Source of the DNA: an uncultured Pelagibacteraceae bacterium | GTDB lineage: Bacteria > Pseudomonadota > Alphaproteobacteria > Pelagibacterales > Pelagibacteraceae | DNA: 64,000 bases | Assembly (NCBI GenBank): GCA_902546375.1 | Contig: CACCJO010000001.1 | Coordinates: forward strand, 47,572-111,571 | Direction of reading: 5' to 3' | Shown: positions 40,507 to 62,670 of the stretch, in pieces | How positions within the stretch are numbered: the stretch's first letter is position 1 | How the letters are laid out: every line of letters begins with the position of its first letter | Notes under the pieces: model-generated | What the model saw: only the letters and a program-made list of their open reading frames with translations | Databases searched by the model: none | What the model was told of the DNA's origin: nothing | Made by a program: the position numbers and the translations under genes

Positions 40507-40617
40507 TTACAATAAGAAGATGGCCATTAAAACTAATACAACTATAACAGCGACAGTTCCCCACATAACAAATTTAGTAAAATTGTTCCAAGTATTTTTG
40601 TGACTTTCATTATCCAT
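40507..40617 (-). CDS. 36-aa single-TM protein resembling bacterial aa3-type cytochrome c oxidase subunit IV (COX4_pro_2-like)
   Basis: Not in ORF track; reverse strand reads MDNESHKNTWNNFTKFVMWGTVAVIVVLVLMAIFLL*. Confidence 0.7.
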   Translation of the reverse strand: MDNESHKNTWNNFTKFVMWGTVAVIVVLVLMAIFLL

Positions 40618-40622
40618 AAGGA

Positions 40623-40748
40623 CTATTTTTGTCTTGCTTTAAATTTTGGATTAGTTTTATTTATTATGTAAATTCTTCCTCTTCTTCTAACAAGTTTAGA
40701 ATTTAAGTCTCGTTTTTTTAACGATTTTAATGAACTTTTTATTTTCAT
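40623..40748 (-). CDS. rpmJ: 50S ribosomal protein L36
   Basis: Not in ORF track; reverse strand reads [41 protein letters not shown], matching L36. Confidence 0.94.
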
Positions 40749-40763
40749 AATACTAAATCAAAA

Positions 40764-40879
40764 TGCCGGCAACGTCCTACTCTCCCATGTCTTAAGACAA
40801 AGTATCATCGGCGCAGAAAGGCTTGACTTCCGAGTTCGGAATGGTATCGGGTATAACTCTTTCGCAATAATTACCGGCA
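40764..40879 (-). rRNA. rrf: 5S ribosomal RNA
   Basis: Reverse strand TGCCGGTAATTATTGCG...ACCCGATACCATTCCGAACTCGGAAGTCAAGCC...GGGAGAGTAGGACGTTGCCGGCA; conserved 5S core and complementary ends. Confidence 0.96.
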
Positions 40880-40916: not shown

Positions 40917-41813
40917 TTAAGTATTGATTTTTTGATGATTTACGATGTTTTTAATATAATTTTTAAGGCTAATTTTACCAAATATTTTATAAACTTTATT
41001 TGAAAGATTCATATTTGTTAATGCTGAAGCATATCTCTCACCTTTTCTAGCTGCTAAAAATTTAATTTTCGTGTCAAACATTTTGGCCACTTCTAAAATT
41101 GTATAACTTTTTTTATTAGAAATACTGTAATGACGACAATTGTTTTTTTTCCAAGCATAAAGGCAAGCATCAACTGTATCATCAATATGAGTAAATCTAC
41201 GAGACTGACTTCCGGGTTTAACAACTGTTAAAGGTTTGTTATTTTTATATTGGTTTTCAAAAATACCTATCACAGTAGCCATGTTTCCTATAGAGATCTG
41301 TTTAGGTCCATACACATTATAAAAATATAAAATTTCATATTTAAAATTAAACCAATTTTTTAAATTCTCTAGCATTTCTAAGTTTTTAGCTTTTGTAAAA
41401 GCATAGGGAGATAAATCTTTATCTTTTCCCTTGTTTCCTATACTGGCAGAAGTTGCTGAGTAAACTAACTTGATCTTATTTGATAAACAAAAATTGAACA
41501 CAGCATGTGATCCAATTGAATTTGATTTAATGCATTCATCCATTTTTAAAAAACTTTGATATATTCTTGAAAATTCACCAAAGTGAAAAATTGTATGAAT
41601 TTTGGATTTGTATTTGTTCAATATTTTTGAAATATTATATGTTGAGTCTTTTATATACTTTACTCTAGAATGACTTATATGATTTTTAATTGATCCAGAA
41701 CTATAATTATCTAAGCTAATTATTTTATATTTGGTATTTTTCAAAAGTTTATCAATGAGATTTCCACCAACAAAACCAGCACCACCTGTTACCACTATAA
41801 TTTTTTTAGTCAT
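40917..41813 (-). CDS. NAD-dependent epimerase/dehydratase family protein
   Basis: VVTGGAGFVGGNLIDKLL, YSATSASIGNKG...LSPYAFTKAKNLEM, YFYNVYGPKQ. Confidence 0.9.
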   Translation of the reverse strand: MTKKIIVVTGGAGFVGGNLIDKLLKNTKYKIISLDNYSSGSIKNHISHSRVKYIKDSTYNISKILNKYKSKIHTIFHFGEFSRIYQSFLKMDECIKSNSIGSHAVFNFCLSNKIKLVYSATSASIGNKGKDKDLSPYAFTKAKNLEMLENLKNWFNFKYEILYFYNVYGPKQISIGNMATVIGIFENQYKNNKPLTVVKPGSQSRRFTHIDDTVDACLYAWKKNNCRHYSISNKKSYTILEVAKMFDTKIKFLAARKGERYASALTNMNLSNKVYKIFGKISLKNYIKNIVNHQKINT

Positions 41814-43461
41814 TATCTGATCTAATCTTTTTAATTAAATCTCTGTTCAAAACAATATAAAATTTTTCTCCATTGTTATTTCTTTTCTTTTCTGCTTTTG
41901 ATAGTAAATCAATAAAATGGTTAGCATTGGGATTTATATAATAATGAGCATTGATTAAAGGATTAAAATTATATTTTTCATTTTCTTTAAGTAATCTATT
42001 AACATTTTTTGATAAAAAAAATAGAAAAGATAAACAAATTAATATTGTTATTTTTTTTTTTAATTTAAAATCTGAAATAAGATTTCTTTCTATGAATAAG
42101 CTTAAAGGAACAAAAAAAAGCAACGCAATTAATGTATAACCACCATATCTTAAAGCTGGATGGTTTAAAAACCATTCAATTAACAAAATTAATATCGAGA
42201 AGTAAAATAAGTGAATTTTTTTTTTCAATAATCTTTCATTTTTAAATTGAATTAAAAAGATTGAACAAATGATAATAATTAAAAATAGAGATAATAAATA
42301 ATCTGAAATTTTATTAAAAAAATGATTTTGTATCCAATTAGGAACCCAATTTAAACCAGACAAATATTGGTCAATATTTTCAATTCGATAAGTTGGGCTT
42401 GCTCCTGCTTTGGACCAAAGCTCATACCAGGTTTTCATCTGAATAACTTGGCTCTTTGGTATTGACCAAGAAAATGAGTCAAAACATGTAAAACTGGCGG
42501 GATAAATAAGGCAACCAGTATTTGAAAATATAGTAATTAAAATAATAAGAATACTAAATATAAAAAAATATGTAATTCTCTGTGAAAATAATTTTTTATA
42601 AAAGCTACTTTCAAATAAAGTTTTTCTAAACTCATAAAAAAATATCACTATAAAAATCAAATATATCAAATAAAAACTTTTCAATGAGGCTATTAAAATA
42701 ATTAATATTAAAATTTTTTGATAAAAATAATTAAAGTTAATTATACTTTTCCTTATATTGGTTCCCTCCAAATAATAAATAGCTAGAATAAAAATTAGAA
42801 TTAATGCTGATCTATCTGTTCCATGTTCAGCTAATCTATGAAAAATTGAATTAACAAATATTAACGAAAATAATGATAATATTAGTATAAAATCATATCT
42901 TTTGTTTTTTAATTTATTGAATATTTTTTGAATAAAAAAAATATTTGAAAAAATCAAAAAAAAGATAGCTCCACTATTAATTAATGATTTTTCTAAAATC
43001 GGAAGATAAAATAGAGAATTTAAGTAAAATATAGAAGATGGCGTCCTAAATCCATGCTCTAAATTACCAACACCAAAGATTTTTTTGAATTCAATTAATG
43101 ATATTGTGTAAGGAAAATGATAATAGAAAAAATCATCATGAGTTTTATGCATTATAAGCCCGATAAATAATAAGGTTGAAACTAATAAAATTAACTTAAT
43201 TTTTTTTTTTAATAATCCTTTTTTTGTAAACATGAAAAAAGCAATTAGTCCCAATATAATAAATACAGAATTATGAATAAAATTATGTGCAAAAAAAAAA
43301 TTAGTTATGTACGACAAAACAGTCATAAATAAAATCCCACTTAAACCCAATTCACCTAAAGAAAGTCGAAGTGAAAGAAATTTTGTTGAAATAAATCCAA
43401 ATCCAACTATAGAAAATATAATTACTAGATAACCTAAATATAATTCAAGCAGAGTTATCAT
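41806..43461 (-). CDS. Large multi-pass membrane protein of unknown function (GT-C/LIC_10190-like topology)
   Basis: 551 aa, many hydrophobic helices; surface-polysaccharide context. Confidence 0.6.
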   Translation of the reverse strand: MITLLELYLGYLVIIFSIVGFGFISTKFLSLRLSLGELGLSGILFMTVLSYITNFFFAHNFIHNSVFIILGLIAFFMFTKKGLLKKKIKLILLVSTLLFIGLIMHKTHDDFFYYHFPYTISLIEFKKIFGVGNLEHGFRTPSSIFYLNSLFYLPILEKSLINSGAIFFLIFSNIFFIQKIFNKLKNKRYDFILILSLFSLIFVNSIFHRLAEHGTDRSALILIFILAIYYLEGTNIRKSIINFNYFYQKILILIILIASLKSFYLIYLIFIVIFFYEFRKTLFESSFYKKLFSQRITYFFIFSILIILITIFSNTGCLIYPASFTCFDSFSWSIPKSQVIQMKTWYELWSKAGASPTYRIENIDQYLSGLNWVPNWIQNHFFNKISDYLLSLFLIIIICSIFLIQFKNERLLKKKIHLFYFSILILLIEWFLNHPALRYGGYTLIALLFFVPLSLFIERNLISDFKLKKKITILICLSFLFFLSKNVNRLLKENEKYNFNPLINAHYYINPNANHFIDLLSKAEKKRNNNGEKFYIVLNRDLIKKIRSDND

Positions 43462-43473
43462 TTCAATAAGTAT

Positions 43474-44736
43474 TTATATCGAGTCAATTTTAAAGAAAGC
43501 GTCGTGAATTAGTTTTAACTTATTTTTATCAATTTTTTTTGTATGAAGACCAATCAAAAAACCAAGTTCTTGAACTGCCTGGGTATTTGGATACTTTCTT
43601 TTTTCTTTGTTAAGTTTATAAAGCTTTGCTGCCGGTTGATTTAAGAAATTTCCACTTATGATTGGTCTTGTTTCTATACCTTTAGAGTCTAAATAGTTAA
43701 CAAATCTTTTTTTTTTATTTCTAAATCTCTTCGATAATAAGATTGGAAAACCCATCCAGCTAGGCTTAAAATTAGGGGGTATATTAATGAACTTAAATTG
43801 ATTATTCCACTTTTTTGAGGATATAAGAGTTTTTATAATTATATTCCTATTTTGATTTCTTTCTCTCATTAATGAGTTTAACCTTTTAAATTGATTGTGA
43901 GCAATTGCACCCTGGATATCAGTTGGCCTTAAATTAAAACCAGAATTTATGAAAATGTATCTTGGATCTAATTGAGGATTTTTTTTAGCATATGATTTAT
44001 ACAATCTAAGATTTCTTTTGTAAAATCTTGTTCCACCCAACCAACCATGAGATCTTAATGCAAAAAGAATATCATAATCTTCTTTTGTTTTACAAACTAC
44101 CATCCCTCCTTCACCAGATGTTATTTGATGTGAATAAAAAAATGAAAAACTTGCAAAATCTCCAAATGTTCCCAGATATTTATTTTTTAATCTTGATCCT
44201 AAAGACTCACAATTATCCTCAATAATTGTTAAATTATTTTTTTTTGCTAATTTACTAATATCAAAAAGATTTGCACTAATTCCTAAAACATTTATTAACA
44301 TTATTGCTTTAGTTTTTTTTGAAATATTTTTTTTTAGTTCATCAATTTTTATATTAAGAGTTTCCAAATCAATATCGATAAATTTTAATTTTAATCCAAA
44401 TTGAACTAATGGCCATATGGAAGTTGACCAACATAAAGCTGGAACCAAAACTTCATCTCCTCTCTTGAGAGAATTTTTTCTCATTAAATTTCCAGCAGCA
44501 AAAGTTGCTAATAAGTTAGCAGAAGACCCTGAGTTAACCATTAATGCATATTTTGCTCCAATTTTTTTTGCAAATGCCGTCTCAAACTTTCTTGTAAAAG
44601 ATGCCATTGTAATTTGTCTTGAATTTAAGACCTTCTTACCAATTAAAATATCTTCCTTTGAGAAACCATTCTCTAAAAGTTGATACTTATATTTTTTATT
44701 TATTAAGTTGTTAATTTTTTGTTTATTTTTTTTCAT
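43474..44736 (-). CDS. DegT/DnrJ/EryC1/StrS-fold PLP enzyme; probable sugar 3-dehydratase (ColD-like) since PLP Lys is replaced by His
   Basis: YALMVNSGSSANLLATFA, VPALCWSTSIWPLVQFGL, EDNCESLGSRL, SFFYSHQITSGEGGMVV, SGFNLRPTDIQGAI. Confidence 0.85.
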   Translation of the reverse strand: MKKNKQKINNLINKKYKYQLLENGFSKEDILIGKKVLNSRQITMASFTRKFETAFAKKIGAKYALMVNSGSSANLLATFAAGNLMRKNSLKRGDEVLVPALCWSTSIWPLVQFGLKLKFIDIDLETLNIKIDELKKNISKKTKAIMLINVLGISANLFDISKLAKKNNLTIIEDNCESLGSRLKNKYLGTFGDFASFSFFYSHQITSGEGGMVVCKTKEDYDILFALRSHGWLGGTRFYKRNLRLYKSYAKKNPQLDPRYIFINSGFNLRPTDIQGAIAHNQFKRLNSLMRERNQNRNIIIKTLISSKKWNNQFKFINIPPNFKPSWMGFPILLSKRFRNKKKRFVNYLDSKGIETRPIISGNFLNQPAAKLYKLNKEKRKYPNTQAVQELGFLIGLHTKKIDKNKLKLIHDAFFKIDSI

Positions 44737-47136: not shown

Positions 47137-48195
47137 TTACTTAAGTAGTTCTTTTTGTGCCTTTTTTAAATCACTTTCAAGCATTTCTCTCACTAAATCT
47201 CTAAATGAATACTTGGGTTTAAAATTGAGATCTTTAAATGCCTTTGATGCATTTCCTTTTAAATAATTTACTTCATTTGGTCTAAAGTAATTTTTGTCAA
47301 TTTTTATAATCGTTCTATTATTATTTTTTTTATCTTTAATATATCCTACTTCATTTAATCCCTTACCTCTCCAGTAAATTTTAATTCCTAAATATCCTGA
47401 TGCAATATTAATAAACTCTCTTACTGAATATGCTTCCCCAGTCGCAATTACATAATCTGAAGGTTTTTTTTGTTGTAAAATCCTCCATTGCATCTCGGTA
47501 TAATCTTTTGCATGACCCCAGTCTCTTTTTGCATTTAAATTACCTAAGTACAAAATATCTCTACTTCCTAATTTTTTTTTTGCTAAAAATCTAGTAATTT
47601 TTCTGGTCACGAAAGTTTCACCTCTTCTTGGGCTTTCATGATTAAATAAAATACCATTGCATGCAAAAATTCCATATGCTTCTCTATAAACCGATGTAAT
47701 CCAATATGAATATAATTTAGCTACTCCATAAGGTGATTTTGGATGAAATTTAGACTTCTCATTAAAAACATTTTTTCCATAAGTTTCTCCAAAAAGTTCG
47801 GACGTACTAGCCTGATAAAATTTAACATTTTTTATTTTTAAGAATCTTATTGCTTCTAAGAGCCTTAATGTACCCACTCCTGATACTTCAGAGGTATATT
47901 CCGGATTTTCAAAAGAAACACCAACATGACTTTGAGCCCCTAAATTATATATTTCATTAGGTCTAATTTTATGAATAATATTATAAACACTATTTGTGTC
48001 TGTAAGATCTCCATAATGTAAAAAAAAATTTGTTTTATTATGAGGGTCTATATAAAGATGATCAATTCTTTTAGTATTAAAAGATGATGATTTTCTGATA
48101 AGTCCATGCACTACATAATTTTTTTTTAATAAAAATTCAGCTAAATAAGAGCCGTCTTGACCAGTAATTCCAGTTATAAGTGCTATTTTTTTCAT
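47137..48195 (-). CDS. gmd: GDP-mannose 4,6-dehydratase
   Basis: [82 protein letters not shown]. Confidence 0.96.
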
Positions 48196-54443: not shown

Positions 54444-55415
54444 CTAGTAATTTGTTTTATACCAGCTAATTGTATTTCGTAGACCATCATTAAGGTTTAT
54501 TTTGGATTTCCATCCAATTTTTTTTAAAGTTGAAATATCTAAAATTTTTCTTTTCGTGCCATCAGGAAACTTTCTATTAAATCTTAATCTTTTGTTTGAT
54601 AGGGTTAATTTATTAATAATTTCAGCGAACTTCTTTATTTGAAATTCTTGACCAGAACCAACGTTTATTAACGAATTAATCTTTATAATTTTTAAAAGTT
54701 TTTTATTATTATTGATCTTTAGTTTTAATAAATATCCTATTGCATTTGCTAAATCATCTACATGCATCACTTCTCTTCGAGGCAAACCTGATCCCCAAAT
54801 TTCAACTACATTCTTTTTTTTTCTTTTTGCTTGAATAAATTTTTTAATTAATGCGGGGATAAAGTGGCTATTTTTTGAGTGAAAATTGTCAAAAGGACCA
54901 TAAAGATTGCAGGGCATTAGTGTAAAGAAATTTGTTTTATATTGTTGATTGTAAAATTCACAAACTTTTAATCCAACAATTTTTGCTAAAGCATATGCCT
55001 CGTTAGTTTTTTCAAGTTCATTAGATAATAGATATTGTTCTTTAATAGGCTGTTTTGAATTTTTCGGATAAATACAAGAGCTTCCCAGATTTATAAAGTG
55101 TTTAATTTTATATTTATAAGCAAGATTAATTAAATTTAACTGTATAAATATATTTTCATTTATAAATTCAACAGGATAACTAGCATTTGCTAATATTCCG
55201 CCAACTTTACCTGCACAATTAATTATTATATCTGGTTTTTGTGACCTAATAAATTTTTCTAAATCTTTACTATTAAGTAAATTAAGTTTTTTTCTATTTT
55301 CAAAAATTAATTTTTTAACACCTTCATGTTTCAAATACCTTATTACAGCTCTACCAACCATACCATTGTGACCAGCAACATATATTTTGAATTTTTTTAA
55401 AAGTTTATTTTTCAT
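54444..55415 (-). CDS. GDP-L-fucose synthase-like epimerase/reductase (track ORF extends to 55526; MKNKLLKKFKIYVAGHNGMVG start preferred)
   Basis: IYVAGHNGMVGRAVIRYL, GGILANASYPVEFINEN, NLGSSCIYPKNSKQPIKE, YALAKIVGLKVCEFYNQQY, NLYGPFDNFHSKNSHFIPALI. Confidence 0.92.
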   Translation of the reverse strand: MKNKLLKKFKIYVAGHNGMVGRAVIRYLKHEGVKKLIFENRKKLNLLNSKDLEKFIRSQKPDIIINCAGKVGGILANASYPVEFINENIFIQLNLINLAYKYKIKHFINLGSSCIYPKNSKQPIKEQYLLSNELEKTNEAYALAKIVGLKVCEFYNQQYKTNFFTLMPCNLYGPFDNFHSKNSHFIPALIKKFIQAKRKKKNVVEIWGSGLPRREVMHVDDLANAIGYLLKLKINNNKKLLKIIKINSLINVGSGQEFQIKKFAEIINKLTLSNKRLRFNRKFPDGTKRKILDISTLKKIGWKSKINLNDGLRNTISWYKTNY

Positions 55416-59746: not shown

Positions 59747-60881
59747 ATAGAATTTTTTCAAGAATTTGAAAATGTTTAAAAATTGAAAAATTTTTAGAAA
59801 ATTTTTTAAGATTAATTTTTTTGTTCATCACTTCTTGAATATTTGATTTTTTAAATTTTAAATATTCATCAACAAGAGAAATTCTATCATTATTTTTAAA
59901 TAAAAAACCATTGTTAGAATTATTTAATATTTCTGTTGGACCAGTGTTAGAGTCTGCGGCTATAACGGGCTTATTTAAGAATCCTGACTCGATTAAACTA
60001 AAACCTGGATCTTCATATAAAGATGATGAGATATAGCATTCACAGTGATATAAATAATTAAATATATTTTTTTTATATCCTTCTAAAAAAACATGACCAT
60101 TCAAATTTAAACCTTCTATCAGCTTTTCAAGTTTTTTTCTCTCTTCACCTTCTCCTAGAATAATCAATTTTAAATTTGGATACTCTTTTTTGATTTCTTT
60201 AAAAGCTGTTATTAATAAAGAAAAATTTTTTTGTTTAGTCAATCTACCAATACTAAGTATATAATCCATTTTAATAAATCTATTTTCTATTTTTTCTTTT
60301 TTTTTTATATTTATGGAGTTTACGTTTAATATTGGATCATAAAGAAGTTTTAATTTCTCTTCTGGAAAAATTTTAAGCTTAGAAAATTTTTTTAAGGTTG
60401 ATTTAGTTGGACAGGTTACAACATGAACATTTTTGGAAAGTAGGGTCCAAAAAAATCGCCTTATTATATTAAGTTTTGGTGTTCCTGAAATTCTTATAAT
60501 TAATTTTGTTTGAAACTTAAAAAAAAAAAACAGGACCAGTGGTAAGGATATTATCAGGTGTGCAATCAAAAATTCTGGTTTTTCTTTAAGTAATAATTTT
60601 CTTAATAAATTAAAATTCAATATAAAAATTATCATTTGTGATAATCGACTTTTAAAAAAATTACCTTTTGGTAAAAAATTATGATAATTTTTTTTATATA
60701 ATTTAACAATATCAATTCCTAAAGTTTTATCTAATTTGCTCTGCCATTCGCCTGAGGAGTCGATTAAAAAAGTTTTAAAATTATTTTCTTTATCATATTT
60801 TTTTAATGAATTTATTGAATTTGTAACTGCGCTAACTGTTGCGATATTCGTTAAAAAAGGTGACCAATAATATAATTTCAT
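59739..60881 (-). CDS. Family 4 glycosyltransferase
   Basis: ILSIGRLTKQKNFSLLITAFKEI, CECYISSSLYEDPGFSLIESGFLNKPVIAADSNTGPTEIL. Confidence 0.93.
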   Translation of the reverse strand: MKLYYWSPFLTNIATVSAVTNSINSLKKYDKENNFKTFLIDSSGEWQSKLDKTLGIDIVKLYKKNYHNFLPKGNFFKSRLSQMIIFILNFNLLRKLLLKEKPEFLIAHLIISLPLVLFFFFKFQTKLIIRISGTPKLNIIRRFFWTLLSKNVHVVTCPTKSTLKKFSKLKIFPEEKLKLLYDPILNVNSINIKKKEKIENRFIKMDYILSIGRLTKQKNFSLLITAFKEIKKEYPNLKLIILGEGEERKKLEKLIEGLNLNGHVFLEGYKKNIFNYLYHCECYISSSLYEDPGFSLIESGFLNKPVIAADSNTGPTEILNNSNNGFLFKNNDRISLVDEYLKFKKSNIQEVMNKKINLKKFSKNFSIFKHFQILEKILSN

Positions 60882-61768
60882 TAAGTTTGTTTCAAATAGT
60901 ATGATTTCATAATATTGAAAGTTTTTTCCAATCCCTTTTCAATATCAAATTGAGGTTCCCACCCTGTAATATCTGAGATTTTTTTAATATTTGTATTAAA
61001 TTCCATAGGCCCACTAACTGGTTGATCTTTTGAAATTATTTTTTTTCCTGAGAGATCCTCAATTATTTCTGAGATTAATTTTAATGATGACATTTTGCCT
61101 GATCCCAAGTTTATTATGCCAGTAAAATCTGTATTCAATATTTTAAGAACAGCATCAGCAGCATCTTCTGTAAATATAAAATCTCTTTTTGGTTTATTTG
61201 ACCATATCTCAACTTTTTCTCTTTCAAAAATATCTTGCATAATTGTGGGTATTAAATCAGGTCTTCTTAATTCTGTGTAACCATAAATATTACTTAATCT
61301 AACTATAATTGATGGTACTGATTTTTGATAAAACTTAACTATCTGTTCAGACAAAAATTTACTAAAAATATATTTATTAGTATAAGGATTTATCTCTTGC
61401 TTTTCATCAACTGGTATGACTAATTTATTTTGGTCATACAAAAGAATTGTTGTGAAACAAATAAATTTCTTTAAATTTCTTTTTGAAAAATAATCAAGCG
61501 CCTTATTTAGTGGGTATACATTAAAATCAATACCCATATCAATATTAAGATTTATCTCGTGATGATTGGAACTACCAATCAAAAAAATTACTTTATCAAA
61601 TTCTAATTTATCTAACTTATGGAGTTCATTTAAATCTTTAATTTGAATGTGTTGATTTTTACAATGTTTGGGAGGGGGTGTTCTACCTACCGAAATAATA
61701 TCTTCATCTTTAGACAAAATTACTGGTCCAAAAAAGCCACTACCCCCAAATAAAAGTGTTTTTGTCAT
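60881..61768 (-). CDS. NAD-dependent epimerase/dehydratase family protein
   Basis: TKTLLFGGSGFFGPVIL, NPYTNKYIFSKFLSEQIV, VRLSNIYGYTELRRPDLIPT. Confidence 0.87.
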   Translation of the reverse strand: MTKTLLFGGSGFFGPVILSKDEDIISVGRTPPPKHCKNQHIQIKDLNELHKLDKLEFDKVIFLIGSSNHHEINLNIDMGIDFNVYPLNKALDYFSKRNLKKFICFTTILLYDQNKLVIPVDEKQEINPYTNKYIFSKFLSEQIVKFYQKSVPSIIVRLSNIYGYTELRRPDLIPTIMQDIFEREKVEIWSNKPKRDFIFTEDAADAVLKILNTDFTGIINLGSGKMSSLKLISEIIEDLSGKKIISKDQPVSGPMEFNTNIKKISDITGWEPQFDIEKGLEKTFNIMKSYYLKQT

Positions 61769-62670
61769 TTTTTTAATTTTTCGTATATTTCTCTAATTCC
61801 CACTGATAATTGAGTTAATTTAAAATTTGGAAAATTTTTTTCAAATCTACTTGTGTCAATATCTTTTCTCATTTGTCCATTGGGTCTATCAGGATTATAT
61901 TTTATTTTTAAATGTTCGGCATCACAAACCTTTAAAGCAATTTTTGCTATTTCAGATACTGTATAATTTTCATCAGTAGCAATATTCATATTCAAGTATT
62001 TATCTTCTTCTATCATTTTACAAATTATTCTAGCTACATCCCTTGCATGCATAAATTGTCTTAGAGGTGTGCCATCTCCAAATAATTCAATAAAATTTTT
62101 GTTTGAATTTTTTGCTGCTATAATTTTATGAATTAAAGCACCTACAAAATGTCCTTGAATTTGATCAAATTTATCAAATTCTCCGTACAAATTACATGGG
62201 ATTAAGTAGTTATAATTTGTATTGTATTTTTTATTGTACATATCAACTTGAATAGCTAAACATCTTTTGGCATAGGAATAGGAAAAAAGATCTTGGTGTG
62301 GTGCGCCCTCTATTAATTGATCTTCTTTTATAGGATAATTCGAAATTTTATCTGGATAAATACATGAGCTTAATATTCCAGTAAATCTTTTTACTTTAAA
62401 TTTATAACTTTCTTTGAGAACAAAAGTATTAATCAATAAGTTTTCCTCAAAGTATCTTACAGGTTCCTGAATGTTATGATGAACACCTCCAACAAGTGCC
62501 GCTAGGTGTATCACAATATTTGGCTTTATATCCTGGAACATTCTAATAACTTCATTATTTTTGGTTAAATTATAATCAGACGACCCCACATATACTGCAT
62601 TTGGCATTTGTTGTTGTAAGTATTTCCCGATAAGTCCGGTTCCACCAGTAACAAGTATTTTATTTTTCAT
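61765..62670 (-). CDS. GDP-L-fucose synthase-like NAD-dependent epimerase
   Basis: ILVTGGTGLIGKYLQQQM, ALVGGVHHNIQEPVRYFEENLLIN, LSSCIYPDKISNYPIKE, NLYGEFDKFDQIQGHFVGALI. Confidence 0.88.
   Translation of the reverse strand: MKNKILVTGGTGLIGKYLQQQMPNAVYVGSSDYNLTKNNEVIRMFQDIKPNIVIHLAALVGGVHHNIQEPVRYFEENLLINTFVLKESYKFKVKRFTGILSSCIYPDKISNYPIKEDQLIEGAPHQDLFSYSYAKRCLAIQVDMYNKKYNTNYNYLIPCNLYGEFDKFDQIQGHFVGALIHKIIAAKNSNKNFIELFGDGTPLRQFMHARDVARIICKMIEEDKYLNMNIATDENYTVSEIAKIALKVCDAEHLKIKYNPDRPNGQMRKDIDTSRFEKNFPNFKLTQLSVGIREIYEKLKK

Follow-up and report, generated by a model that had tools for sequence, protein, structure and literature searches.

3,6-Dideoxyhexoses are familiar chiefly as O-antigen determinants in enteric bacteria, and GDP-4-keto-6-deoxymannose, made by GDP-mannose 4,6-dehydratase (gmd), also feeds the fucose, rhamnose and perosamine branches. 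In E1 (RfbH), the CDP-6-deoxy-D-xylo-4-hexulose 3-dehydrase, Cys193, Cys251, Cys253 and Cys261 are presumably the ligands of the [2Fe-2S] cluster. In the cycle of ColD (WbdK of E. coli O55), a ketimine is formed and deprotonated at C4', the C3 hydroxyl leaves and hydrolysis follows, with glutamate regenerating PMP, and the histidine found in the 3-dehydratases at ColD position 188 is their catalytic acid/base (PMC8987622). GDP-6-deoxy-4-keto-heptose is the substrate of C. jejuni 3-dehydratases that share 62-67% identity with ColD (PMC10440746). As for SAR11, which dominates the surface ocean, the O-chain cluster of Pelagibacterales is located between the 16S-23S rRNA and the 5S rRNA, has a G+C content of about 24% and is extremely variable (PMC11898729). 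A partial literature search, which is no proof of absence, retrieved no report linking SAR11 to 3,6-dideoxyhexoses, nor any account of its surface sugars covering this branch.

Within the window (the whole stretch of DNA analysed, 64,000 nucleotides in length, whose closest relatives are Pelagibacteraceae, i.e., SAR11), an ORF of 420 aa with an ATG start was confirmed on the minus strand at 43474-44736, the plus strand across the same interval being stop-rich. The ORF contains the active-site segment SFFYSHQITSGEGGM. Its sequence and active-site residues, its position in the tree and the predicted fold indicate that the product is very probably a PMP-dependent 3-dehydratase acting on nucleotide sugars by a mechanism of the ColD type. 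The same evidence supports its place with the His-type 3-dehydratases, apart from the Lys aminotransferases, as the preliminary description had proposed. Among solved enzymes, ColD was the best match by sequence (1e-77; 38% identity over 365 residues), followed by E1 (3e-49) and by Lys aminotransferases such as GDP-perosamine synthase (1e-29). An AlphaFold model built from a 70-sequence alignment was confident over almost the whole length (pLDDT 94, pTM 0.91; an earlier model from five SAR11 sequences, with pLDDT 51, was set aside), and Foldseek aligned it to ColD 2gms at 2.8e-37 (TM 0.83/0.89), with ColD chains at ranks 1-12, E1 at ranks 13-15 and Lys aminotransferases after them.

The protein carries a histidine, residue 203, in place of the PLP lysine that aminotransferases have, as the preliminary description had read it; alignment to the solved structures places it in the column of ColD His188 and E1 His220. 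The register is secure, since the ColD mutant entries 2r0t, 3b8x and 3gr9 have K or N in this column. No lysine was found at the Schiff-base position in the alignment with ColD and E1, the nearest ones, Lys216 and Lys218, lying outside the motif. The replacement is not due to chance, because His-Gln was present in 47/47 SAR11 sequences read (from 43 genomes and four loci of single-cell genomes) and the histidine is invariant in the 70-sequence alignment, which includes viral relatives.

A sugar aminotransferase of the perosamine type, working without the lysine, would agree with the annotated family name, since the ORF is assigned to Pfam DegT_DnrJ_EryC1 and such genes are labelled aminotransferases in public records; moreover, SpnQ transaminates under forcing conditions (PMC8987622). 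GDP-perosamine synthase (3bn1/3dr4) and other DegT aminotransferases indeed share fold type I with the window enzyme (TM 0.8-0.9), but they differ in having the catalytic Lys, in an identity of about 25% in the structural alignment and in their separate position in the first tree. The histidine of all the SAR11 relatives, together with the separation in this tree of His enzymes, as one clade, from Lys enzymes (support 100/99), makes the aminotransferase reading very unlikely. In the second tree the Lys enzymes lie on a very long branch adjoining E1, although the root of this tree should not be over-read because of its different taxon set and midpoint rooting. Naming a dehydratase an aminotransferase is a recurrent error, and once it is corrected a deoxy sugar, not an amino sugar, is predicted in the glycan. 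The RefSeq name of E. coli ColD itself (locus L107, 6756-7922) is 'DegT/DnrJ/EryC1/StrS family aminotransferase', and that of the ColC beside it 'GDP-L-fucose synthase family protein'.

The window enzyme shares with E1/RfbH (3bcx) the fold, the catalytic histidine and the motif HxITxGEGG. A CDP-4-keto-6-deoxyglucose 3-dehydrase of the E1/RfbH type, needing [2Fe-2S] and the E3 reductase, had therefore to be weighed. RfbH was the top NCBIfam match, although its 268 bits fall short of the cut-off of 423 (no equivalog cut-off was reached), and seven positions side with E1 rather than with ColD, against nine. On the contrary, E1 Cys251, Cys253 and Cys261 correspond to T, F and Y in the window enzyme, which has three cysteines in total and retains only E1 Cys193 (as Cys176), a cysteine that ColD has too, whereas all four are conserved in 11/11 E1-group sequences compared; the CxC-type motif of E1, which the preliminary description had not seen, is indeed absent. 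E1 also forms a separate clade in the trees and, unlike the enzyme studied here, is linked to CDP-glucose 4,6-dehydratase, a gene that was found neither in the window's genome (72% complete) nor on the contig of the dehydratase gene in any relative. An E1-type enzyme is thus extremely improbable, and as an Fe-S enzyme it was ruled out on the cysteines. With three of the four Fe-S cysteines missing, the sequence supports a mechanism like that of ColD (PMP and glutamate, no [2Fe-2S]) rather than that of E1, and no external reductase would be expected.

In a survey of 297 sampled Pelagibacteraceae genomes, the gene, counted at an identity of at least 48%, was present in 43, a few others having different ColD-like enzymes. 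Residues Trp88, Glu162, Ser187, His188 and Arg250 of the ColD pocket (ColD numbering) are retained in 100% of the 47 SAR11 members, whereas E1 differs from ColD at Trp88, Glu162, Ser187 and Arg250. The SAR11 sequences form one clade in both the first (100/99) and the second tree (100/100), located beside, and not inside, the clade of ColD and of a group near HddA-like kinases, the node that joins the two being weak (85/94 and 89/67, respectively). The SAR11 clade is a new clade of a known kind of enzyme. Regarding the ColD type originally proposed, class and mechanism are supported, but the gene is no ColD ortholog. The window enzyme and ColD (2gms, 2r0t, 3b8x, 3gr9) have in common the fold, the histidine in place of the PLP lysine, the HGW motif, the pocket residues Trp88, Glu162, Ser187 and Arg250, the lack of the Fe-S cysteine set and the linkage to gmd; they differ in the low identity, in the separate deep clade, in ColD His189, which is Gln in all 47 SAR11 members, in Arg219 and a loop insertion (window subclade, see below) and in the adjoining genes, among which no ColC ortholog was identified.

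A degenerate or inactive enzyme in a hypervariable O-chain island appears highly improbable. A single in-frame stop does occur in 3/43 copies (G242:C3:15198-16397, G110:C3:38452-39636 and G208:C24:2142-3350), either by sequencing error or in pseudogenes, and Arg219 of ColD is replaced in the window subclade; however, the window ORF is intact, an intact copy with 89% identity is present in another single-cell genome, the pocket residues are fully retained and the structural model is confident over nearly the full length.

The features of the locus are listed in Table 1. The dehydratase gene lies about 2.6 kb inside the 5S rRNA border, beyond which the G+C content is 22-26%, whereas the window's first 32 kb has about 27-32%. 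The position of the 5S rRNA, the drop in G+C and the published borders of the cluster therefore identify it as a gene of the O-chain cluster. On its own strand it has a membrane protein gene (41806) and an SDR gene (40917) for neighbours, while upstream a Wzy_C-type gene on the opposite strand is followed by a WecA-like transferase gene (46120) and gmd, both on the strand of the dehydratase. The membrane protein, of the LIC_10190 family (41806-43461, directly downstream of the dehydratase), has homologs recurring in several SAR11 O-chain loci and is possibly a membrane glycosyltransferase. At the cluster border, a pntA sRNA (RF01810) adjoins the 5S rRNA (window 40560-40878).

Table 1. Positions in the window of the predicted dehydratase, its active-site codons and the associated genes.
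Feature	Positions	Strand	Evidence or remarks
5S rRNA, right-hand border of the O-chain cluster	40764-40878	-	Border as published in PMC11898729
SDR, nucleotide-sugar epimerase/reductase type, candidate 4-ketoreductase	40917-41813	-	Tyr-x3-Lys; without the Fcl/ColC catalytic Cys
Predicted PMP-dependent NDP-4-keto-6-deoxyhexose 3-dehydratase, ColD type	43474-44736	-	ORF, ColD match, Foldseek, tree
GGTRFY loop after HGW, residues 234-239	44020-44037	-	Coordinates computed from the ORF start
Gln204 codon	44125-44127	-	Second His in ColD and E1; Gln in 47/47 SAR11 relatives
His203 codon, at the PLP-lysine position of aminotransferases	44128-44130	-	Codon CAT (plus-strand positions); = ColD His188, E1 His220
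gmd, GDP-mannose 4,6-dehydratase, source of GDP-4-keto-6-deoxymannose, the presumed substrate	47137-48195	-	TIGR01472, 516 bits (cut-off 415)
GDP-L-fucose synthase (Fcl) homolog, full catalytic set	54444-55415	-	372 bits, NF047922; 37% identical to ColC
SDR, partner of 61765	60881-61768	-	In L068 and L069, homologs directly precede the dehydratase
Fcl/ColC-like SDR, candidate epimerase/reductase	61765-62670	-	177 bits, GDPFucSynFcl; catalytic Cys, Tyr-x3-Lys and His retained

The gmd gene, already reported near the dehydratase in the preliminary description, proved to be real and lies 2.4 kb from it. A strong gmd match was found in 31/43 genomes with the dehydratase gene and in 68/254 without it (odds ratio 7; Fisher p 2.5e-8, an optimistic value, because the genomes are related and the test ignores both relatedness and completeness). 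In 23 genomes gmd lies within 15 kb of the dehydratase gene, and in 12 it is co-directional and touches it or is at most 50 bases away. No strong match was retrieved in 12/43 genomes with the gene, several of which are incomplete, and in two relatives of the window subclade (L068 and L069) the dehydratase gene lies beside SDRs rather than gmd. The window's genome also contains a GDP-mannose pyrophosphorylase-like gene, as a partial match to model positions 1-283 out of 467. SAR11 genomes hold, in addition, a large group of Gmd-like proteins that are shorter, at about 330 aa (e.g., G025:C44:4074-5033 and G108:C15:9539-10498), and score 387-414 bits, just below the cut-off of 415; they could be another kind of 4,6-dehydratase, or a reductase.

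Two other sugar nucleotides were considered. CDP-glucose 4,6-dehydratase was detected in 19/46 genomes searched but never on the contig of the dehydratase, and a CDP-sugar substrate was ruled out on these grounds. The same chemistry could also act on a different GDP-sugar, e.g., GDP-6-deoxy-4-keto-heptose, leading to a 3,6-dideoxyheptose, as the heptose specificity of the ColD homologs of C. jejuni HS:5/HS:11 would recommend. Like ColD, to which they are homologous, these enzymes need PLP and glutamate to deoxygenate a GDP-4-keto sugar at C3 (PMC10440746), but, in a comparison by description, they differ in the heptose substrate and in the hddA/gmhA/hddC genes, the SAR11 gene being found with gmd. 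Another SAR11 ColD-like group does occur near HddA-like kinases, adjoining in L105 and within a few kb in L090 and L106. However, HddA-like genes were found in only 3/42 genomes searched among those with the SHQ enzyme and never close (nearest at about 21 kb, in G029), no HddA match was retrieved in the window's 72%-complete genome, and a strong gmd adjoins the dehydratase in 12 genomes; the heptose reading was lowered because of the HddA search and is unlikely. The linkage to gmd, the rarity of HddA and the constant absence of CDP-glucose 4,6-dehydratase from the contig instead make GDP-4-keto-6-deoxymannose the likely substrate, a conclusion we hold with reasonable confidence. As regards the second ColD-like group (L105 10642-11811, L106 9479-10645, L090 9108-10274 and L124), the proximity of the kinases in L105, L106 and L090 suggests a GDP-3,6-dideoxyheptose branch.

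With GDP-4-keto-6-deoxymannose as substrate, glutamate would convert the bound PLP to PMP, which would condense with the Gmd product at its C4 ketone to give a ketimine. His203, which unlike the lysine of aminotransferases cannot form an internal aldimine, would then abstract the C4' proton of PMP, with departure of the C3 hydroxyl, and hydrolysis of the enamine would release GDP-4-keto-3,6-dideoxymannose, ammonia and PLP. Reduction by a neighbouring SDR, with or without epimerisation at C5, would finally supply the O-chain with a GDP-3,6-dideoxyhexose. Of the colitose-like GDP-3,6-dideoxyhexose originally suggested, the GDP branch is supported through the gmd linkage, whereas a colitose-like sugar is just one possible outcome: L-colitose would require C5 epimerisation as well as reduction, and a sugar of the D series would result if reduction occurred without epimerisation. 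Since the partner reductase varies and the window subclade has the changes at Arg219 and in the adjoining loop described below, the assignment of colitose as end product is tentative and rather doubtful.

Fcl-like reductases, whose vicinity had been pointed out before, were found at 54444 and 61765. Set against a ColC-type GDP-L-colitose synthase, both keep the catalytic Cys/Tyr/Lys/His but are only 32-37% identical to ColC, and they lie 10-17 kb away from the dehydratase; the closest solved relatives of 61765, which is 32% identical to E. coli ColC, are GDP-L-fucose synthases. An SDR lies within 8.5 kb of the dehydratase in 21/25 loci and is adjacent and co-directional in 14, but its identity varies: in many loci it is a short SDR (cluster c3) that has Tyr-x3-Lys but lacks both the Cys and the His of Fcl/ColC, in others an Fcl-like gene with the full catalytic set. 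In L068 and L069, the dehydratase is preceded, in one co-directional run, by an Fcl-like gene sharing 62% identity with window 61765 and then by an SDR sharing 65-66% identity with window 60881; because of this run, 61765 and 60881 are the best candidate partners despite their distance of 16-17 kb. The SDR at 40917, with homologs near the dehydratase in L002, L073 and L074, and the Fcl homolog at 54444 are alternative partners, the latter possibly belonging to a separate fucose branch.

Together with its four closest relatives, the window enzyme constitutes a five-member subclade in which the nearly invariant ColD Arg219, after HGW, is Gly, while this position is Arg in 73/89 family sequences and Lys in four; the replacement is accompanied by the loop insertion GGTRFY. 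Given these two changes, the exact substrate of ColD should not be assumed. The SAR11 clade, or at least the GGTRFY subclade without Arg219, might even represent a separate 3-dehydratase that has a sugar-nucleotide specificity of its own and makes, with SDRs of the 60881/61765 type, a GDP-dideoxy sugar other than L-colitose, although we regard this as speculative and somewhat improbable. If so, this dideoxy sugar would vary among strains as a surface component of the most abundant bacteria in the ocean. More generally, the clade predicts GDP-linked 3,6-dideoxyhexoses in a sizeable minority of SAR11 (43/297 sampled genomes) and suggests that some SAR11 cells are coated with rare 3,6-dideoxy sugars, as are some gut bacteria.

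No SHQ member was found outside Pelagibacteraceae in 399 genomes of the phylum and 240 of the class, L109 and L110 reading SHH. Viral scans with a single query (the window protein or ColD alone) gave no match, but alignment-based scans did: 3-dehydratase relatives are encoded in 556/600 candidate stretches of virus-labelled contigs and include both ColD-like (HGW) and E1-like (CYC) forms. The catalytic histidine was present in 62/62 of the viral relatives read (among L128-L212), with Lys in none, and is followed by N, V, I or T in single copies. Four of them (L128-L130 and L132) have His-Gln too, so that this pair was ruled out as a signature exclusive to SAR11; since these viral sequences fall inside the ColD/heptose-linked clade, Gln after the histidine arose more than once. 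A relative of the window protein is also found in cyanophages such as ACG-2014f.
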